DNA of 64,000 nt, from NCBI RefSeq assembly GCF_029643425.1, contig NZ_CP119106.1:1550001-1614000 (forward strand), given 5' to 3'. Position 1 is the first letter of the stretch; each line of letters begins with the position of its first letter. Shown piece after piece: positions 4,815-61,345 of this stretch. The translations under genes were made by a program, and so were the position numbers. Source of the stretch: Isoptericola sp. AK164. Lineage in GTDB: Bacteria; Actinomycetota; Actinomycetes; Actinomycetales; Cellulomonadaceae. Under the pieces are notes generated by a model that saw only the letters and a list, made by a program, of their open reading frames with translations, was not told the origin of the DNA and ran no database searches.

Positions 4815-5561
4815 GTGACGACGAACCCGACACCCGTCGGCACCGTGACCCACGTGACCCACGCCGGGGCGGACACCGACGGCACGCGCCGCCGGGTCCT
4901 CGAGCTGGTCGCCACCGAGGGCCCCGTCACCGCCGGTGACCTGGCCCGCACGCTCCGGCTGACCTCGGCGGCCGTGCGCCGGCATCTGGCCTGCCTCGAG
5001 CAGGACGGCACGATCGCGGTGCACGAGACCGCTCCGGCGGCCCGCCAGGCACGTCGTGGCCGCCCCGCGCGGCGCTACGTGGTCAGCACGGCGGGGCAGG
5101 CCGAGCTCGGGGGCGAGGACGTCGAGCTCGCGACGCAGGCGATGCGCTACCTGCGCCGCACGGCCGGGGACGCGGCGGTGGCGGAGTTCGCCGCCGAGCG
5201 CAACGACGCCGTCGTCCGCCGCTACGCCCCGCGCCTGACCGGCGCCGACCCGCACGAGCGGGCCGCCCAGCTGGCGGACCTGCTCGCCGCCGACGGCTAC
5301 GCCGCCTCGGTACGGCCCGTGGCCGGGCCCCAGATCCCCACCGTCCAGCTGTGCCAGGGCCACTGCCCGGTCCAGCACGCGGCGGAGGACTTCCCCGAGC
5401 TGTGCGAGGCGGAGGCCGACGCCTTCGCCCGGCTGCTCGGTACGCACGTCCAACGGTTGGCCACCCTCGCAGGCGGCGCGCACGCCTGCGTGACCAACGT
5501 CCCGCTTGCTCCCCCCACCCCCGCCGGCCGCTCCCGCGGTACGCAGGAAGGAACACGATGA
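4815..5561 (+). CDS. sufR: SufR, Fe-S cluster-sensing repressor of the suf operon
   Basis: A 248-residue regulator with an N-terminal winged helix (about residues 25-85, LELVATEG...[13 protein letters not shown]). The C-terminus has four cysteines, C180, C184, C197 and C225, spaced as in SufR proteins that bind a [4Fe-4S] cluster. In known cases the cluster-loaded protein represses suf and release under iron or oxidative stress derepresses it. The GTG start is chosen for the GGGAGGTGAG ribosome binding site just upstream. Its stop overlaps the sufB ATG (ATGA), so it is the first gene of the operon. Confidence 0.92.
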
Positions 5562-7009
5562 GCGTCCCCACCCAGGCCGCCGCCCAGGCGGCGCAGGAGC
5601 AGCGCACCGACGAGGAGATCATCGCCTCGATCGGTGCCTACGAGTACGGCTGGCACGACGAGGACTCCGCCGGCCAGACCGCCGAGCGCGGGCTGAGCGA
5701 GGCCGTCGTGCGCAACATCTCGGACATGAAGGACGAGCCGGAGTGGATGCGCAAGCGTCGGCTCAAGGCGCTGCGCCTGTTCGACAAGAAGCCGATGCCG
5801 AGCTGGGGTGCCGACCTGACCGGCATCGACTTCGACCGCATCAAGTACTTCGTGCGCTCCACCGAGAAGCAGGCCACCAGCTGGGAGGACCTGCCCGACG
5901 ACATCAAGGCGACGTACGACAAGCTCGGCATCCCCGAGGCGGAGAAGCAGCGCCTCGTGGCCGGCGTCGCGGCGCAGTACGAGTCCGAGGTCGTCTACCA
6001 CCAGATCCGCGAGGACCTGGAGGCCCAGGGCGTCATCTTCGTCGACACCGACACCGGTCTGCGCGAGCACCCCGAGCTGTTCGAGGAGTACTTCGGCACG
6101 GTCATCCCGGCCGGCGACAACAAGTTCTCCGCGCTGAACTCCGCGGTGTGGTCGGGCGGCTCGTTCATCTACGTGCCGCCGGGCGTGCACGTCGACATCC
6201 CGCTGCAGGCCTACTTCCGGATCAACACCGAGAACATGGGCCAGTTCGAGCGGACGCTGATCATCGCCGACGAGGGCTCCTACGTGCACTACGTCGAGGG
6301 CTGCACGGCGCCGATCTACTCCACCGACTCGCTGCACAGTGCCGTCGTGGAGATCGTCGTCAAGAAGAACGCCCGCGTGCGGTACACGACCATCCAGAAC
6401 TGGTCGAACAACGTCTACAACCTGGTGACCAAGCGCGCCACGGCCGAGGCCGGCGCCACCATGGAGTGGGTCGACGGCAACATCGGCTCCAAGGTCACCA
6501 TGAAGTACCCGGCGATCTACCTGCTGGGCGAGCGCGCCCGCGGCGAGACGCTGTCCATCGCCTTCGCCGGCGAGGGTCAGCACCAGGACGCCGGCGCCAA
6601 GATGGTGCACGCCGCCCCGCACACCTCGAGCTCGATCGTCTCGAAGTCGGTGGCCCGTGGCGGCGGCCGCACCTCCTACCGCGGTCTGGTGCAGGTGCTC
6701 GAGGGCGCCGAGGCGTCCGCGTCGAACGTCCTGTGCGACGCGCTGCTCGTCGACCAGATCTCCCGGTCCGACACCTACCCGTACGTCGACGTCCGCGAGG
6801 ACGACGTGTCCATGGGGCACGAGGCGACGGTGTCCAAGGTGAGCGAGGACCAGCTGTTCTACCTCATGTCCCGAGGCATGGAGGAGACCGAGGCCATGGC
6901 CATGATCGTGCGCGGGTTCGTCGAGCCCATCGCGCGCGAGCTGCCCATGGAGTACGCCCTCGAGCTCAACCGCCTCATCGAGCTGCAGATGGAAGGGTCC
7001 GTCGGCTGA
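5558..7009 (+). CDS. sufB: SufB, Fe-S scaffold subunit
   Basis: A 483-residue SufB, the main scaffold on which clusters are built by SufBC2D. Landmarks include the N-terminal EYGWHDEDS and [13 protein letters not shown] motifs, [19 protein letters not shown], the VEGCTAPIY segment bearing a conserved Cys, and the C-terminal [13 protein letters not shown]...[21 protein letters not shown]. The ATG start is preceded by AGGAAGGA and overlaps the sufR stop. Full length and well conserved. Confidence 0.97.
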
Positions 7010-54981: not shown

Positions 54982-55066
54982 GTCCGGGTGGCGGAATGGC
55001 AGACGCGCTAGCTTGAGGTGCTAGTGCCCGTTATAGGGCGTGGGGGTTCAAGTCCCCCTCCGGACA
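54982..55066 (+). tRNA. tRNA-Leu(GAG)
   Basis: An 85-base cloverleaf. The acceptor stem pairs GTCCGGG with TCCGGAC plus discriminator A. The anticodon stem CTAGC/GCTAG holds loop TTGAGGT with anticodon GAG (55015-55017). A long variable arm follows, as usual for leucine, and the T arm is GGGGG-TTCAAGT-CCCCC. CCA is not encoded. The 3' end doubles as the attachment site of a genomic island. Confidence 0.97.
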
Positions 55067-55093
55067 CTCGTTGAGACAGCGACGACGAAGGCC
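55047..55093 (+). repeat. Left attachment core (attL) in the tRNA 3' end
   Basis: The T-arm, acceptor end and the following 20 bases recur at 61298-61345. The first 24 bases are identical, then the copies differ by one inserted T and one substitution. The intact tRNA lies on this side. Confidence 0.85.
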
Positions 55094-55881: not shown

Positions 55882-55973
55882 TGGCGCGCGCAGCCAAGAT
55901 GGCTGCGCAGGCCAAAACCTTGGATGAGCAAGCAGAGCTCTGCGCCTCCGTCGACGGGGGAGTGTCCGCATGA
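55881..55973 (+). CDS. Tiny ORF 2 (30 residues) overlapping the SIR2 start
   Basis: The frame begins at the ATG overlapping ORF 1's stop and ends at a TGA that overlaps the SIR2 ATG (ATGA). It encodes an amphipathic Ala/Lys/Glu-rich helix, MARAAKMAAQAKTLDEQAEL, then CASVDGGVSA. Chained overlaps imply translational coupling into the SIR2 gene. I do not recognise it. Confidence 0.45.
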   Translation: MARAAKMAAQAKTLDEQAELCASVDGGVSA

Positions 55974-57190
55974 CCCTCGTCGCCAAGGAGTTGACGACAG
56001 AGCGTCTGCGCGATCTGGTGCAGGACGCCCATCTCTCATTCCTGTTCGGGGCCGGCGCTTCGGCTCCCATGTTCCGCTTGCTCGGCGACATCGAGAACCT
56101 GCTAACGAGCCTGGACTCCTCCGACGCCGCGGAGGATGCGAAGGCCTTCGCCCGAGGTTCCATCTACTCGGGCTTCTTCCGCAGCGTGGTACTAAAGAAC
56201 AATGACCTGCTCAACCGGAGCGGGACTGAGGCGCCCCGACTCTTGGAGCGGTACGAGGCGTTCCTCCAGACGATCAACCGGCTGCTTCTGGAGCGCCGCA
56301 GTTCGCTGCTCAACAAGCAGGTCAACCTGTTCACGACGAACGTCGACCTGGCGACGGAGATCGCCGCCGAGAGCCTCCAGGTCCACCTCAACGATGGCTT
56401 CGCAGGACGGCTGCAGCCGCGCTTCAGCACGTCGAACTTTGGCTCGGTCGTCTCGCGGCGCAGCCTCCAGTACGACAACCTGTCCGAGGTTCCGGCCTTC
56501 AACCTGCTCAAGCTCCACGGCTCGGTCGGCTGGTCAGCCACAGGGGAGGAGGCGAGCCGCCCCGAGATTGGTCTCGACACCCGTCTGCGACAGGTTGCCG
56601 CGGTCGCCAAAGAACTGGACAAGGTCGACGCGATCTTGGCCGAGGTTGCCGCCGAGACGACCTTGGAGACCTTGCTCGAAGGCCCGGTTCCCCCGGACGC
56701 TGCCGCCTTGCTGTCGCCGTTCTTGGACGCGTACAGCGAGTTGGCCATCGTCAATCCGACGAAGGCGAAGTTCCAGCAGACCGTGCTGAACCAGAACTAC
56801 TATGACCTGCTTCGGCTCTTCTCGAACGAGCTCGAGAAGGAGAATGGCGCTCTCTTCGTCATCGGCTTCTCATGCCGCGACGAGCACATCCGGGAACTCA
56901 TGATACGCGCCGCCCGCACCAACCCGACGCTCCAGATCGTCATCTTCGCCTACGACCCGCACGCGGCCACGGAGATCGAGCGAGCCTTCGACGGCTATCC
57001 GATCACCAACAGCAACATCTGGCTGATCGCGCCGACCGCGGATGCGGAGGGCGAAGAGCCTCTGCGCTACGACCTGCCCACCGTCACATCCGAGTTCTTC
57101 GCGAAGGTCGCGCCATCCTCGTCGGCTCCCAGGCAGACGGTCGAAGTAAAGGTCTCAGTGCAAGAGCCTCTGGTCGACCTCGATGATTGA
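55970..57190 (+). CDS. SIR2-family NADase subunit of a SIR2-HerA defence system
   Basis: A 406-residue SIR2-domain protein. Motifs: FLFGAGASAP (GAGAS at 27-31), FTTNVD at 121-126, KLHGS with catalytic His183, and VIGFSCRDEHI (299-307). In anti-phage SIR2 systems the domain degrades NAD+ to abort infection. It is followed by a HerA gene overlapping its stop codon by eight bases. Codons and GC are markedly lower than in the core genes, indicating transfer. The C-terminal 60 residues are of unknown role. Confidence 0.9.
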   Translation: MTLVAKELTTERLRDLVQDAHLSFLFGAGASAPMFRLLGDIENLLTSLDSSDAAEDAKAFARGSIYSGFFRSVVLKNNDLLNRSGTEAPRLLERYEAFLQTINRLLLERRSSLLNKQVNLFTTNVDLATEIAAESLQVHLNDGFAGRLQPRFSTSNFGSVVSRRSLQYDNLSEVPAFNLLKLHGSVGWSATGEEASRPEIGLDTRLRQVAAVAKELDKVDAILAEVAAETTLETLLEGPVPPDAAALLSPFLDAYSELAIVNPTKAKFQQTVLNQNYYDLLRLFSNELEKENGALFVIGFSCRDEHIRELMIRAARTNPTLQIVIFAYDPHAATEIERAFDGYPITNSNIWLIAPTADAEGEEPLRYDLPTVTSEFFAKVAPSSSAPRQTVEVKVSVQEPLVDLDD

Positions 57191-59204
57191 CCACGAGCTG
57201 CTTACGCGCGATGCCGTCTTTCGCGTCGGCGAGGTTGTCGGCATCCAGGGCCGGACGGTTCGCATTCGCGTTGACAAGGCCAAGAACGGTGCGCACCTGA
57301 TCTACCAAGGTCGGCTGCTGCGCAACGTTGGTGTCGGTGGCTTCCTCAAGATCAGCAAGGGCTTCGCCGAGCTGGTCGGCAAGGTGGATGGCGAAGAGGT
57401 TGCTGAAGCGCGCGGCGACGACATCTACCGCAGTTCCCGAGACCGAGTCGAACGAATCCTGACTGTCAGTCTCATTGGCTTCATGTCGGGCGGCCAGTTT
57501 CGCCGCGGTGTACGCGAGCTGCCGCTCGTTGGCAACGAGTGCTTCTTGCTCGACGAGCACGAGTTCGATCGCATCCATAGCTTCGTCGACCCCAAGGACC
57601 GCGCGCTCACGATCGGCCGCCTTGCGATGGAGAAGGGGCAGGACGTTCGGGTTGGCGTCAACAGCCTTTTTGCCAGCCACATCGGCATCTTCGGCAACAC
57701 CGGCAGCGGCAAGTCCTACTCATTGACCAAGCTCTACCACGAACTCTTCGCGGCCTACGGCGACTCCGAAGCGTTCAACAAGCGGGCGCGAGTACTCGTC
57801 ATCGACTTCAACGGCGAGTACATCAACCGGGTTGGTGCCGCTTCCGGAGAGCAGAGCAGTTCGGTACTCACCGATAACGACCTGAAGGCCGAGTTCGTGC
57901 TTTCGACTCGGACCGACACAGGCGACCGTCTTCCTCTGAGTAAGGATGCGATGGAGGACCCGGTCATCTGGACGGTGCTCCTTGACGCAACGGAGAAGAC
58001 CCAAGCGCCGTTCGTGCAGCGCACGCTCCAGCGCGACTACTGGGAGTCTCGGTTGGAGACGGGCGATGATCTCGCCGCCGCAGTCGCCGGCATCGTCTAC
58101 GCCGCAATTCGCAGCTCCGACCCATCGCTCGACAAGGGCCTGGTCGTTAAGTTCCTCGAGGAGGTCGAAGGCTGCATGGGCGGGGAGGCACCTGATGCCC
58201 TGGGCGACTACATTCGCGACATCCAGTCAAACCTCGGATACCACGGGCAGAACAAGTGCTTCTACTACCGTCAAGCCAACGGCACCAACATCTACGCCAA
58301 TGACCCGTCGTGCGACTACAAATTCCAAGAGCTGATCTACACCCGCATCGGCGAGCTTGGCATCGATCCGAGCGCCCTGCAGAGCGTTGACCGCATCCGG
58401 TTCAAGCTCGTGCTGCAGTACTACTCCGACATCTTCAACGGCTACGCGAACCGCGAACACCTCGGCCCGCTTATCAAGCGGCTGGAGTCGCGCATGCCGC
58501 GAGTGAAGCGCCTGATCGAAGTCTCGGACGACACGCTGTTGGACAAGCCGCTGACCGTGATCTCGCTGCGCGACGTCAATGTCGAGATGCGCAAGGTCAT
58601 CCCGCTCCTAATCTGCCGCCAGCTCTACGACGAGAAGAAGCGCGATGGCGATCCTTCGCGTTATCTCAACATCGTCGTCGACGAGGCGCACAACATTCTG
58701 TCGAATGTGTCGTCCCGCGAGAGCGAGGCATGGAAGGACTACCGGCTGGAGACCTTCGAGGAGATCATCAAGGAGGGTCGGAAGTTCGGCGTCTTCTTGA
58801 CCATCGCGAGCCAGCGGCCGCACGACATTTCCGAGACGATCATTTCCCAGCTGCACAACTACTTCCTGCACCGCCTGGTCAACAACCTCGACATTATGGC
58901 TATCGAGCGAGCTGTAGCGTACCTGGACCGCGTGTCGTTTGAGTCCCTGCCGATCCTTCCGACAGGCTCGTGCGTCCTCTCCGGGCTGTCGACCCAGGTG
59001 CCGGTCGTCGTCGACATCGAGAAGCTGCCGGCTGAGTACGAGCCGAACAACAAGACGATGACCTTGGCAGACGGCTGGATCCCAGGCACCGACCCAGATG
59101 ACGGTGGCTCGGGCGCGGCGGCGGACGACCCGACCGACCCCTCGGAGGCCTGGCAGGATTTCGCTGGCAGCGACGAGCGGACCGGCGAGGAGCCTCCGTT
59201 CTGA
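57183..59204 (+). CDS. HerA-like DNA translocase ATPase of a SIR2-HerA defence system
   Basis: A 673-residue hexameric ATPase with a HAS-barrel-like N-terminus (about 1-110), Walker A GNTGSGKS (171-178), Walker B NIVVDEAHN (D500, E501) and a SQRPHD segment at 543 with a likely arginine finger. HerA partners of SIR2 proteins form a large complex that couples DNA or nucleotide sensing to NAD+ depletion. The ATG overlaps the SIR2 stop. Its stop overlaps the ATG of a decayed third gene (TGATG). The last 50 residues are acidic and disordered. Confidence 0.9.
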   Translation: MIDHELLTRDAVFRVGEVVGIQGRTVRIRVDKAKNGAHLIYQGRLLRNVGVGGFLKISKGFAELVGKVDGEEVAEARGDDIYRSSRDRVERILTVSLIGFMSGGQFRRGVRELPLVGNECFLLDEHEFDRIHSFVDPKDRALTIGRLAMEKGQDVRVGVNSLFASHIGIFGNTGSGKSYSLTKLYHELFAAYGDSEAFNKRARVLVIDFNGEYINRVGAASGEQSSSVLTDNDLKAEFVLSTRTDTGDRLPLSKDAMEDPVIWTVLLDATEKTQAPFVQRTLQRDYWESRLETGDDLAAAVAGIVYAAIRSSDPSLDKGLVVKFLEEVEGCMGGEAPDALGDYIRDIQSNLGYHGQNKCFYYRQANGTNIYANDPSCDYKFQELIYTRIGELGIDPSALQSVDRIRFKLVLQYYSDIFNGYANREHLGPLIKRLESRMPRVKRLIEVSDDTLLDKPLTVISLRDVNVEMRKVIPLLICRQLYDEKKRDGDPSRYLNIVVDEAHNILSNVSSRESEAWKDYRLETFEEIIKEGRKFGVFLTIASQRPHDISETIISQLHNYFLHRLVNNLDIMAIERAVAYLDRVSFESLPILPTGSCVLSGLSTQVPVVVDIEKLPAEYEPNNKTMTLADGWIPGTDPDDGGSGAAADDPTDPSEAWQDFAGSDERTGEEPPF

Positions 59205-59681
59205 TGAGCACCGAGCGCGTGTCTTTCACCTGGGCCGGCAGGTCATTTGACCTGACAGCTGACGACGTATGACGTCGGCTGCAACAGCACTATCCCGAGT
59301 CGGTCGATCAGTACTGGGTCGACATCGCCGGCGTCCGCTGGCCGGTCAAGCAGGTCTTGGCGCTCGCGAAGAGGTTGGCGCGCACGAGTTCCCAATCTCA
59401 GAACAGCCGACGTCTGTTGGCAGAGCTGGGTTCACCGTCGGCACGGGATCGAAGGCGGGTCAGCCAGGCACTCGTCGCCCGGCGGCATCGCGGTCGGCGA
59501 GTGTCGACGTAGCCGACCTCCCGAACTTCGAGACGCTGACCGTGTCGGTTGCCCTGACCTGGCGCCAAGCGGGGGCCGTCATGCTCGACAACCAGGGCCT
59601 CCCACTGTTTCCGCGGCTGCGTCGGAACCGGGTTGGTACTGCTACGACCTAGGCCCGGACGAAGGCGGCACGCCCACCTGA
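59204..59681 (+). pseudogene. Decayed third operon gene, probable GIY-YIG-like protein N-terminal part
   Basis: The ATG lies in the herA stop (TGATG). Reading gives MSTERVSFTWAGRSFDLTAD, then a TGA at 59270-59272, where CGA (Arg) would fit. The same frame then continues with VDQYWVDIAGVRWPVKQV and SQNSRRLLAELG. A one-base loss at about 59430 shifts to FTVGTGSKAG and ALTWRQAGAVMLDNQGLPLF. A second one-base loss at about 59620 shifts to SEPGWYCYDLGPDEGGTPT. The WRQAG...PGxY pattern matches the start of GIY-YIG-type domains; the rest is lost after 59681. Confidence 0.6.
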
Positions 59682-59868: not shown

Positions 59869-61296
59869 GGCTCAACGCAGACGAGGGTGTAGCAGCGGCC
59901 TGAAGCCGCCAGCCTCGAGCAATGATCGGGCGATGTAGTGGGTCAGGTTGCGGAAGCCGAGGGCGGAGCCGCGCAGGTGCTCGAGCCGGCCGTTGATCGC
60001 CTCCGTCGGTCCGTTGCTGGTGCCGGGCAGGTCGAAGAACGCCAGCACGTCGGCGGCGCGCTTCGTCAGGGTGCGGCCGAGGGTGATCAGCTCGGTGAGA
60101 ACGGCCGGGACGCCGCGAGTCAGGGAGTCGATCACGGCTGTCATCAGTGCTCGTCCCTGTGCCCGGTCGGGGTGACGGTAGGCGGTGATCATGCGCTGGT
60201 AGATGCCCCAGGTCGCCTCGACCTCGACGTGCTCCTCGGCGGCGAACAGCGCCTCGATCCTGGCGGCCTGCTTGTCGGTGAGCAGGTCGGCGCCGGTATG
60301 CAGAGTCCGTCGAGCACGGTAGAGCGGATCCTTCGCGCGGCCGCGGTGGCCGTGCAGGTCTTGCTGGACTCGGCGGCGGCAGCGGTCCAGCGCGTCGCCG
60401 GCGAGGCGGACCACGTGGAAGGGGTCCATGACTGCGACGGCGTCGGGCAGTTCCTCGGCAGCAGCGGTCTTGAAGCCGGTGAACCCGTCCATCGCGACGA
60501 CCTCGACGCCATTACGCCAGGTCTTCGGCCGGGCGGCGAGCCAGGTCTTGAACGCGCTCTTGGATCGGCCCTCGACGATGTCGAGCAGACGGGCGGGTCC
60601 GGTGCCGTCGCGGATCGGGGTCAGGTCGATCACCACGGTCACGTACTTCTCGCCGCGGCGGGTGTGCCGCCACACGTGTTCATCCACCCCGATCGTGGTG
60701 ACGCCGTCGAACCGGGTCAGATCGTCGATCAGCACCCGTCGGCCCTCCGCGAGTACGCCGTCGTTCGCGGTGTGCCACGCCACCGCGAGAGCCTCGGCCA
60801 CCCGCGCCACTGTCAGGTGCTGAACGACCAGGCCGACCAGCGCCCAGCGCACCGCTGCGCGCGAGAGCTTCGCCCGCGGCTCCGCAGCCGCCGTGGTGTC
60901 CTGGCGCCACACCCGCCGGCAGCCCTCGCAGCGGTAGCGACGCACCCGGACCAGCAGAGTCGTCGGCCGCCACCCGAACGGCTCGTGCGCCAGCCACCGG
61001 ATCACGGTCCCTCGCGGCGTGCCCTCGGCGCCGCACCCTCGGCAGAACGCGTCGTCATCGCGCGCGACGACGCGGCACTCCAGCACCGCCCGGCCCGGCT
61101 CCAGTCGCTGTCCGACCACGACGAGGCCGAGCTCGTCCAGCCGCGCGAAGGGCGTCAGATCAGGAGGATCGAAGGTAGCGTCAGGCACGTCGAGGTCTTC
61201 CGGATGGGCAGTGTGAGAACTTCCATCCTGGGGGACCTCGACCCATCCCCCGGCCAGCTCAGCCAACTACCGCTACACCCTCGTCTGCGTTGAGCC
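59869..61296 (-). mobile_element. ISL3-family insertion sequence, inserted in the right att core
   Basis: A complete 1428-base IS. Ends are inverted repeats starting GGCTCAACGCAGACGAGGGT, identical for at least 25 bases. An 8-base direct repeat TTTCAAGT flanks it at 59861-59868 and 61297-61304, the target duplication size of ISL3 elements. The target is the T-arm part of the tRNA-derived att repeat. Confidence 0.95.
59872..61266 (-). CDS. ISL3-family transposase
   Basis: A 464-residue DDE transposase with an N-terminal zinc-ribbon-like domain (FCRGCGAEG, RYRCEGCRRVWRQ), DDE residues in GVDEHVWRH, VAMDGFTGF and SNGPTEAINGRLE, and the family C-terminus. The last residues and stop codon are encoded by the terminal repeat. 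The frame is intact, so the element may be active. Confidence 0.93.
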   Translation of the reverse strand: MAELAGGWVEVPQDGSSHTAHPEDLDVPDATFDPPDLTPFARLDELGLVVVGQRLEPGRAVLECRVVARDDDAFCRGCGAEGTPRGTVIRWLAHEPFGWRPTTLLVRVRRYRCEGCRRVWRQDTTAAAEPRAKLSRAAVRWALVGLVVQHLTVARVAEALAVAWHTANDGVLAEGRRVLIDDLTRFDGVTTIGVDEHVWRHTRRGEKYVTVVIDLTPIRDGTGPARLLDIVEGRSKSAFKTWLAARPKTWRNGVEVVAMDGFTGFKTAAAEELPDAVAVMDPFHVVRLAGDALDRCRRRVQQDLHGHRGRAKDPLYRARRTLHTGADLLTDKQAARIEALFAAEEHVEVEATWGIYQRMITAYRHPDRAQGRALMTAVIDSLTRGVPAVLTELITLGRTLTKRAADVLAFFDLPGTSNGPTEAINGRLEHLRGSALGFRNLTHYIARSLLEAGGFRPLLHPRLR

Positions 61297-61297
61297 T

Positions 61298-61345
61298 TTC
61301 AAGTCCCCCTCCGGACACTCGTTTGAGACAGCGACGTCGAAGGCC
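61298..61345 (+). repeat. Right attachment core (attR) copy of the tRNA-Leu 3' end
   Basis: This repeats 55047-55093. The first 24 bases are identical. Its upstream flank was separated by the ISL3 insertion. The core is followed by a hairpin as at the left copy. Confidence 0.85.

Follow-up and report, generated by a model that had tools for sequence, protein, structure and literature searches.

Behind the SIR2 and herA genes of Isoptericola sp. AK164 lies a third gene that is real, decayed, and broken into pieces that belong together. Judged from sequence, it was probably a passenger of a small tRNA-Leu island, a nuclease gene that was coupled to herA in translation and could be dispensed with. 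It seems to have been broken independently in its two carriers, and does not look like a regular third member of the SIR2-HerA system. All coordinates are positions within the window, the 64,000-nucleotide stretch of contig NZ_CP119106.1 that was analysed (Table 1).

Table 1. Features of the SIR2-HerA island and its borders
Feature	Position	Strand	Basis
tRNA-Leu (anticodon gag)	54982..55067	+	ARAGORN
26-bp perfect direct repeat, left copy (attL-like), covers the tRNA 3' end	55047..55072	+	repeat search
SIR2 gene, 406 aa, open	55970..57190	+	PADLOC SIR2 E 2.3e-58; Pfam SIR2_2 E 1.8e-7
herA gene, 673 aa, open, overlaps SIR2 end	57183..59204	+	PADLOC HerA PDLC04097 E 3.2e-166; Pfam DUF87
Third gene, N-terminal SCO5918-like domain, broken by in-frame TGA	59204..59437	+	
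Third gene, linker and leader of GIY-YIG domain, other frame	59419..59625	+	
Third gene, last piece kept (PGWY at the GIY position), third frame, ends at stop codon	59611..59681	+	
ISL3-family insertion sequence (transposase 59872-61266)	59869..61296	-	Pfam DDE_Tnp_ISL3 E 2.6e-57
26-bp tRNA repeat, right copy (attR-like)	61298..61323	+	repeat search

A decayed gene overlaps the end of herA

SIR2-HerA is described as a two-gene antiphage system (Garb et al. as cited in PMC10952713; Tang, Zhen and Liao et al. as cited in PMC12198126). As in that system, a SIR2-domain gene and a HerA ATPase gene are adjacent in the window, which is what defines a SIR2-HerA pair; the two genes also overlap and are matched by PADLOC. 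The difference is a third, broken GIY-YIG gene behind herA, whereas PMC12198126 tables the system as two-component. The herA stop codon (TGA 59202-59204) shares its A with the ATG of this gene (59204-59206), and the coordinates given for the overlap in the preliminary description are correct. Because stop and start overlap, in the arrangement TGATG, translation of the downstream gene could have been coupled to that of herA.

The first frame of the third gene runs for 22 codons (MSTERVSFTWAGRSFDLTADDV), meets an in-frame TGA (59270-59272), and continues as RRLQQHYPESVDQYWVDIAGVRWPVKQVLALAKRLARTSSQSQNSRRLLAELG (59273-59431). Near 59431 the frame changes, into TVGTGSK...LTWRQAGAVMLDNQGLPLFP. A second change, near 59611-59625, leads into EPGWYCYDLGPDEGGTPT, which ends at the TGA of 59679-59681. 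This pattern fits the one TGA and two one-base losses proposed earlier. Beyond what was then described, the gene is also truncated. It is cut off at 59681, upstream of the catalytic YIG motif, and both YIG and the remaining domain are missing. Since the leader and PGWY are present without YIG, the product should not be active.

When the pieces were joined and used as a query, matches were found in 11 genomes beyond its own in a phylum sample (n = 396). The best, which included the N part, had E 1.1e-11 and 42% identity. Of the 11, that in G774 looks spurious; it contains four stops, and a further search of its region (L049) gave no hit. In its own genome the joined query matched its own locus alone, and no paralogue was seen. 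Separately, GIY-YIG matches were found in two open frames of this genome, of 703 and 610 codons.

The C-terminal part resembles GIY-YIG nucleases

With the C-terminal piece as query, four genomes beyond its own were matched in a class sample (n = 246). The sole strong match was in G887, an actinobacterial genome (E 3.9e-10). Weak matches in G876, G974, and G754 (E 0.0045 to 0.032) were set aside; the G876 and G974 regions have no such domain. In G887 the N-terminal and GIY-YIG halves are both present, in different frames, with 50% identity to the window gene over shared columns and a continuation GLYGFDFG...LYIGESTNLARRGSNYR. In a second actinobacterial genome, G1036, both halves share one reading frame, interrupted once by a TAG (profile E 1.4e-83, positions 1-248 of 251). 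Hence, the fragments do join into one protein, as the preliminary description proposed. For a chance reading of non-coding DNA, nothing speaks apart from the broken frames. The independent matches (E 1.1e-11 and 3.9e-10) refute this explanation, to which we assign next to no probability.

Both relatives continue past the end of the window copy into GLY...YIGES..LARRGSN. The GIY and YIG motifs, with the following Arg, are seen in relatives, and the window copy retains the GIY position alone (PGWY). A profile of the C part, made from two relatives and containing no window row, matches the window piece with E 3e-10. Note that the N profile does contain a window row, which makes its match to the window circular; that match was not used. 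No family match was obtained for the window C piece itself, nor any Pfam match for the G887 C part at E 0.1. The Pfam GIY-YIG family (PF01541) matches two relatives at E 0.033 and 0.11, below the gathering score, and an intact relative from a Paracoccus plasmid at E 0.0077 (positions 3-69 of 78), also sub-threshold. Scores for the three are 14.9, 13.3, and 16.9 bits, all under the curated cutoff of 22.6 bits. A three-member profile, comprising the two relatives and the Paracoccus protein, was compared with 177,635 distinct sequences of solved structures. Its best match was endonuclease II of phage T4 (2wsh; E 0.0019). UvrC chains followed (E 0.11 to 0.7), and FimX ranked among these (E 0.64).

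Relatives of the window gene thus have the motif order of GIY-YIG endonucleases such as 2wsh and the UvrC N-domain (GLY...YIGES...R). They differ in that proteins of the window type have a WR.AG leader and score below the Pfam threshold, and the window copy is without the YIG part. We conclude that the first reading of the C part, as the beginning of a GIY-YIG nuclease domain, is well supported by these sequence comparisons.

The Paracoccus protein (WP_272835915.1, Paracoccus aestuarii plasmid p9146) has the same GIY-YIG type behind DUF7662. By eye, the type is also found behind an HTH-like start. A distant match to the Paracoccus protein is WP_237353294.1 from a Rhizobium phaseoli plasmid (26.5% identity, E 7e-4), annotated as a GIY-YIG nuclease, and its gene adjoins Shedu and AbiGi genes. 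Both plasmid proteins resemble the window gene in that a small N-terminal part precedes the GIY-YIG domain. They differ in that their N-terminal parts are other ones, and the regions compared have no SIR2 or HerA match. GIY-YIG examples of defence proteins given in PMC10952713 are PD-T4-3 and PD-lambda-1; PADLOC 2.0.0 matched none of six modular nuclease-like proteins tested.

Among plasmids, the joined protein and the G1036 C part each matched one record, and the Paracoccus protein matched 15, most via its DUF7662 part. The window C piece and the G887 C part matched no plasmid. No match was found in phages, and no relative in viral contigs, where single-protein scans are sensitive to close relatives only. 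An intact copy of the exact SCO5918 plus GIY-YIG architecture was not found in the samples searched. The two SCO5918-GIY-YIG relatives described above (regions L140 7904-8658 and L164 8960-9712) are interrupted once each. In L164, a divergent DUF3427 helicase gene adjoins the relative.

The N-terminal domain is SCO5918-like and keeps varied company

The N-terminal domain, previously called unnamed, is SCO5918-like. It matches NCBIfam NF038312 (SCO5918_fam) with E 8.4e-5. Like that family, it spans some 75 residues with PVKQ and RR.L..LG; it differs in preceding a nuclease-type domain, and in scoring 22.6 bits against a cutoff of 60 bits. Five proteins with the domain were scanned against NF038312; two scored above 60 bits (62.2 and 184.3) and three below (59.4, 48.1, and 17.3). 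A comparison with solved structures gave eight matches, which were taken as chance; the best (E 0.005) covered 24 residues of a designed barrel protein. No papers on SCO5918 or DUF7662 were found in the literature collection searched.

Leaving out the GIY-YIG carriers, 19 loci with the N-domain were read for downstream architecture. The domain is followed by an Mrr-like region in three (L158, L159, and L165), by DUF6308 in one (L157), and in another (L050) by an unnamed region, with an Mrr_cat gene about 1 kb away. Eight loci have a DUF5678-like tail (two Pfam-scanned, of which one was above cutoff, and the others assigned by eye). In five more the protein ends shortly past the domain, and one locus (L043) is ambiguous. 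The Mrr-like region of L158 has a sub-threshold Pfam Mrr_cat match; that of L165 has no Pfam match but is 41% identical to L158. The company of nuclease-type domains suggests that the N-domain may be a DNA-recognition part. As a separate observation, the SCO5918-like domain is fused to the conserved Mrr-like region, RE[HR]G[VI]DV...EVKG, in three actinobacterial genomes (L158 7684-8403, L159 7336-8043, and L165 8249-8938, all on the minus strand). PADLOC has no match for the L165 protein.

The island is bounded by a tRNA repeat, and a second carrier is broken differently

The two copies of the 26-bp repeat enclose a 6.25-kb island that contains SIR2, herA, the dead third gene, and an insertion sequence. 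The repeat has two matches in the window, compared with none in shuffles, and the tRNA-Leu (gag) gene is the probable site of integration. Outside the 26-bp repeats, about 200-250 bp are also partly alike (repeats D1, D3, and D6). On reading the open frames of the window, no integrase was seen between the two repeats. The ISL3 element, which has perfect terminal inverted repeats of 25 bp and has duplicated 8 bp of its target (TTTCAAGT), is inserted at the right copy. It is the sole full-length match in its own genome (40 of 500 candidates scored).

A second carrier of the third gene is Cellulosimicrobium sp. CUA-896, in which HerA is 94% identical. No tRNA was found in the stretch of that genome examined. 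Between the two genomes, dN for SIR2 is 0.039 and dS 0.332 (dN/dS about 0.12); for the first 622 codons of HerA, dN is 0.024 and dS 0.335 (dN/dS about 0.07). Hence, both genes, which are open, look to be under purifying selection. The Cellulosimicrobium third gene overlaps herA in the same way (TGATG), and its first 36 codons are all that is left; these are 80.6% identical to those of the window. Over 35 comparable codons dN is 0.079 and dS 0.42, a comparison too short for much weight. The window's TGA corresponds to a sense codon in Cellulosimicrobium. Since the lesions differ, the third gene was probably lost independently in the two genomes.

One-base shifts are a common sequencing error. 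Furthermore, the relatives in G887 and G1036 carry single interruptions too. Even so, it is very unlikely that the gene is intact in the cell and was damaged by sequencing or assembly. Within 480 bp there are three separate lesions, and the final two fifths of the gene are missing, yet SIR2, herA, and the nearby transposase are open. Moreover, the closest relative, that of Cellulosimicrobium, is truncated as well. Programmed frameshifting or stop read-through might produce a functional protein from a recoded gene, and all four copies of the architecture or its start (window, Cellulosimicrobium, G887, and G1036) are interrupted. However, the interruptions are unlike in kind and place, and the window copy is entirely without the YIG part. 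We consider recoding extremely improbable.

The third gene is rarely found with SIR2-HerA

HerA used as bait was found in 5 of 396 genomes of the order, its own included, and in its own alone among 396 of the phylum. For a wider comparison, the best 80 of 152 relatives in a HerA-alignment scan were combined with seven loci from other searches, giving 86 distinct loci after one duplicate (L018 = L067). All 86 have both HerA and SIR2 matches. By tblastn and profile, the N-domain lies behind herA in one, Cellulosimicrobium sp. CUA-896, and the GIY-YIG domain in none. The third gene was not found in the other 85, including those with HerA at 85% and 65% identity. The N profile recovers all 22 positive-control loci; 14 of them were represented by a row in the profile, and eight (two overlapping) were not. 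Of the 80 scan loci, 73 extend at least 500 bp past herA, 69 at least 1,000 bp, and seven less than 500 bp. Conversely, none of the 23 loci that carry an N-domain or GIY-YIG relative has SIR2 or HerA, whereas all seven control loci do.

These counts bear on a proposal of the preliminary description, a three-gene variant of SIR2-HerA. In such a variant, the GIY-YIG protein would be a working third component in one actinobacterial sublineage, for example providing DNA ends for HerA loading or acting as a second effector. In its favour, two genomes 94% alike in HerA have the same gene with the same TGATG overlap, and the dN and dS of the 35 codons are as expected of coding sequence. Moreover, the gene has had the same operon position in both carriers since before they diverged (dS about 0.33), which may point to selection for the association and against a passenger. 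However, the gene was not found in 85 of 86 SIR2-HerA loci, its relatives occur without SIR2-HerA, and it is broken in both carriers, where SIR2-HerA is retained. A true variant is thus unlikely, and a short-lived one is possible; no intact case was found. A more detailed version seems to us somewhat less probable again. In this, a self-recognising GIY-YIG nuclease, coupled to herA in one actinobacterial sublineage, would have cut invading DNA and given ends for HerA loading, and then, being costly, would have been lost repeatedly to leave two-gene systems.

What stands of the original reading is a decayed gene overlapping herA, with an N-domain and a GIY-YIG start; the three-gene variant is not supported. 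The preliminary description had itself named three outcomes as counting against it: no intact homologue, homologues never adjacent to SIR2 or HerA, and no GIY-YIG similarity in intact proteins. The first two are close to what we found, since no intact copy with both domains turned up in the samples searched. The third is contrary to the similarity seen in the relatives.

We favour the passenger explanation, because one of 86 SIR2-HerA loci has the third gene and varied other genes lie behind herA elsewhere. The fragment would be the pseudogene of a modular endonuclease, in which an SCO5918-like domain, probably for DNA recognition, preceded a GIY-YIG cutting domain. Modularity is indicated by the occurrence of the GIY-YIG type behind DUF7662 or an HTH-like start, and of the N-domain with an Mrr-like region or DUF6308. 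An ancestor of the island probably carried the nuclease gene as a third cistron, presumably coupled to herA translation. Its product was most likely a self-contained, restriction-like DNA cutter that rode with SIR2-HerA and would not have been needed by the pair. The gene would then have broken independently in the two known carriers, with SIR2-HerA apparently staying under purifying selection.

If so, an accessory gene can be gained and lost at the position behind herA in SIR2-HerA loci, and a neighbour translated together with the pair need not be a component. Small nuclease-like proteins also appear to form a modular group, in which GIY-YIG or Mrr-like regions are joined to exchangeable N-terminal domains.

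In 45 of the 80 scan loci, an open frame of 80 codons or more begins close to the herA stop. These frames are mostly dissimilar, and a few small groups recur. Plasmid records with HerA relatives number 143, of which three regions were examined. Finally, on a 6-kb contig of Nocardioides oceani (L056), the ends (1-1857 and 5529-5990) begin, by eye, with the same protein sequence, inverted, around SIR2-HerA.
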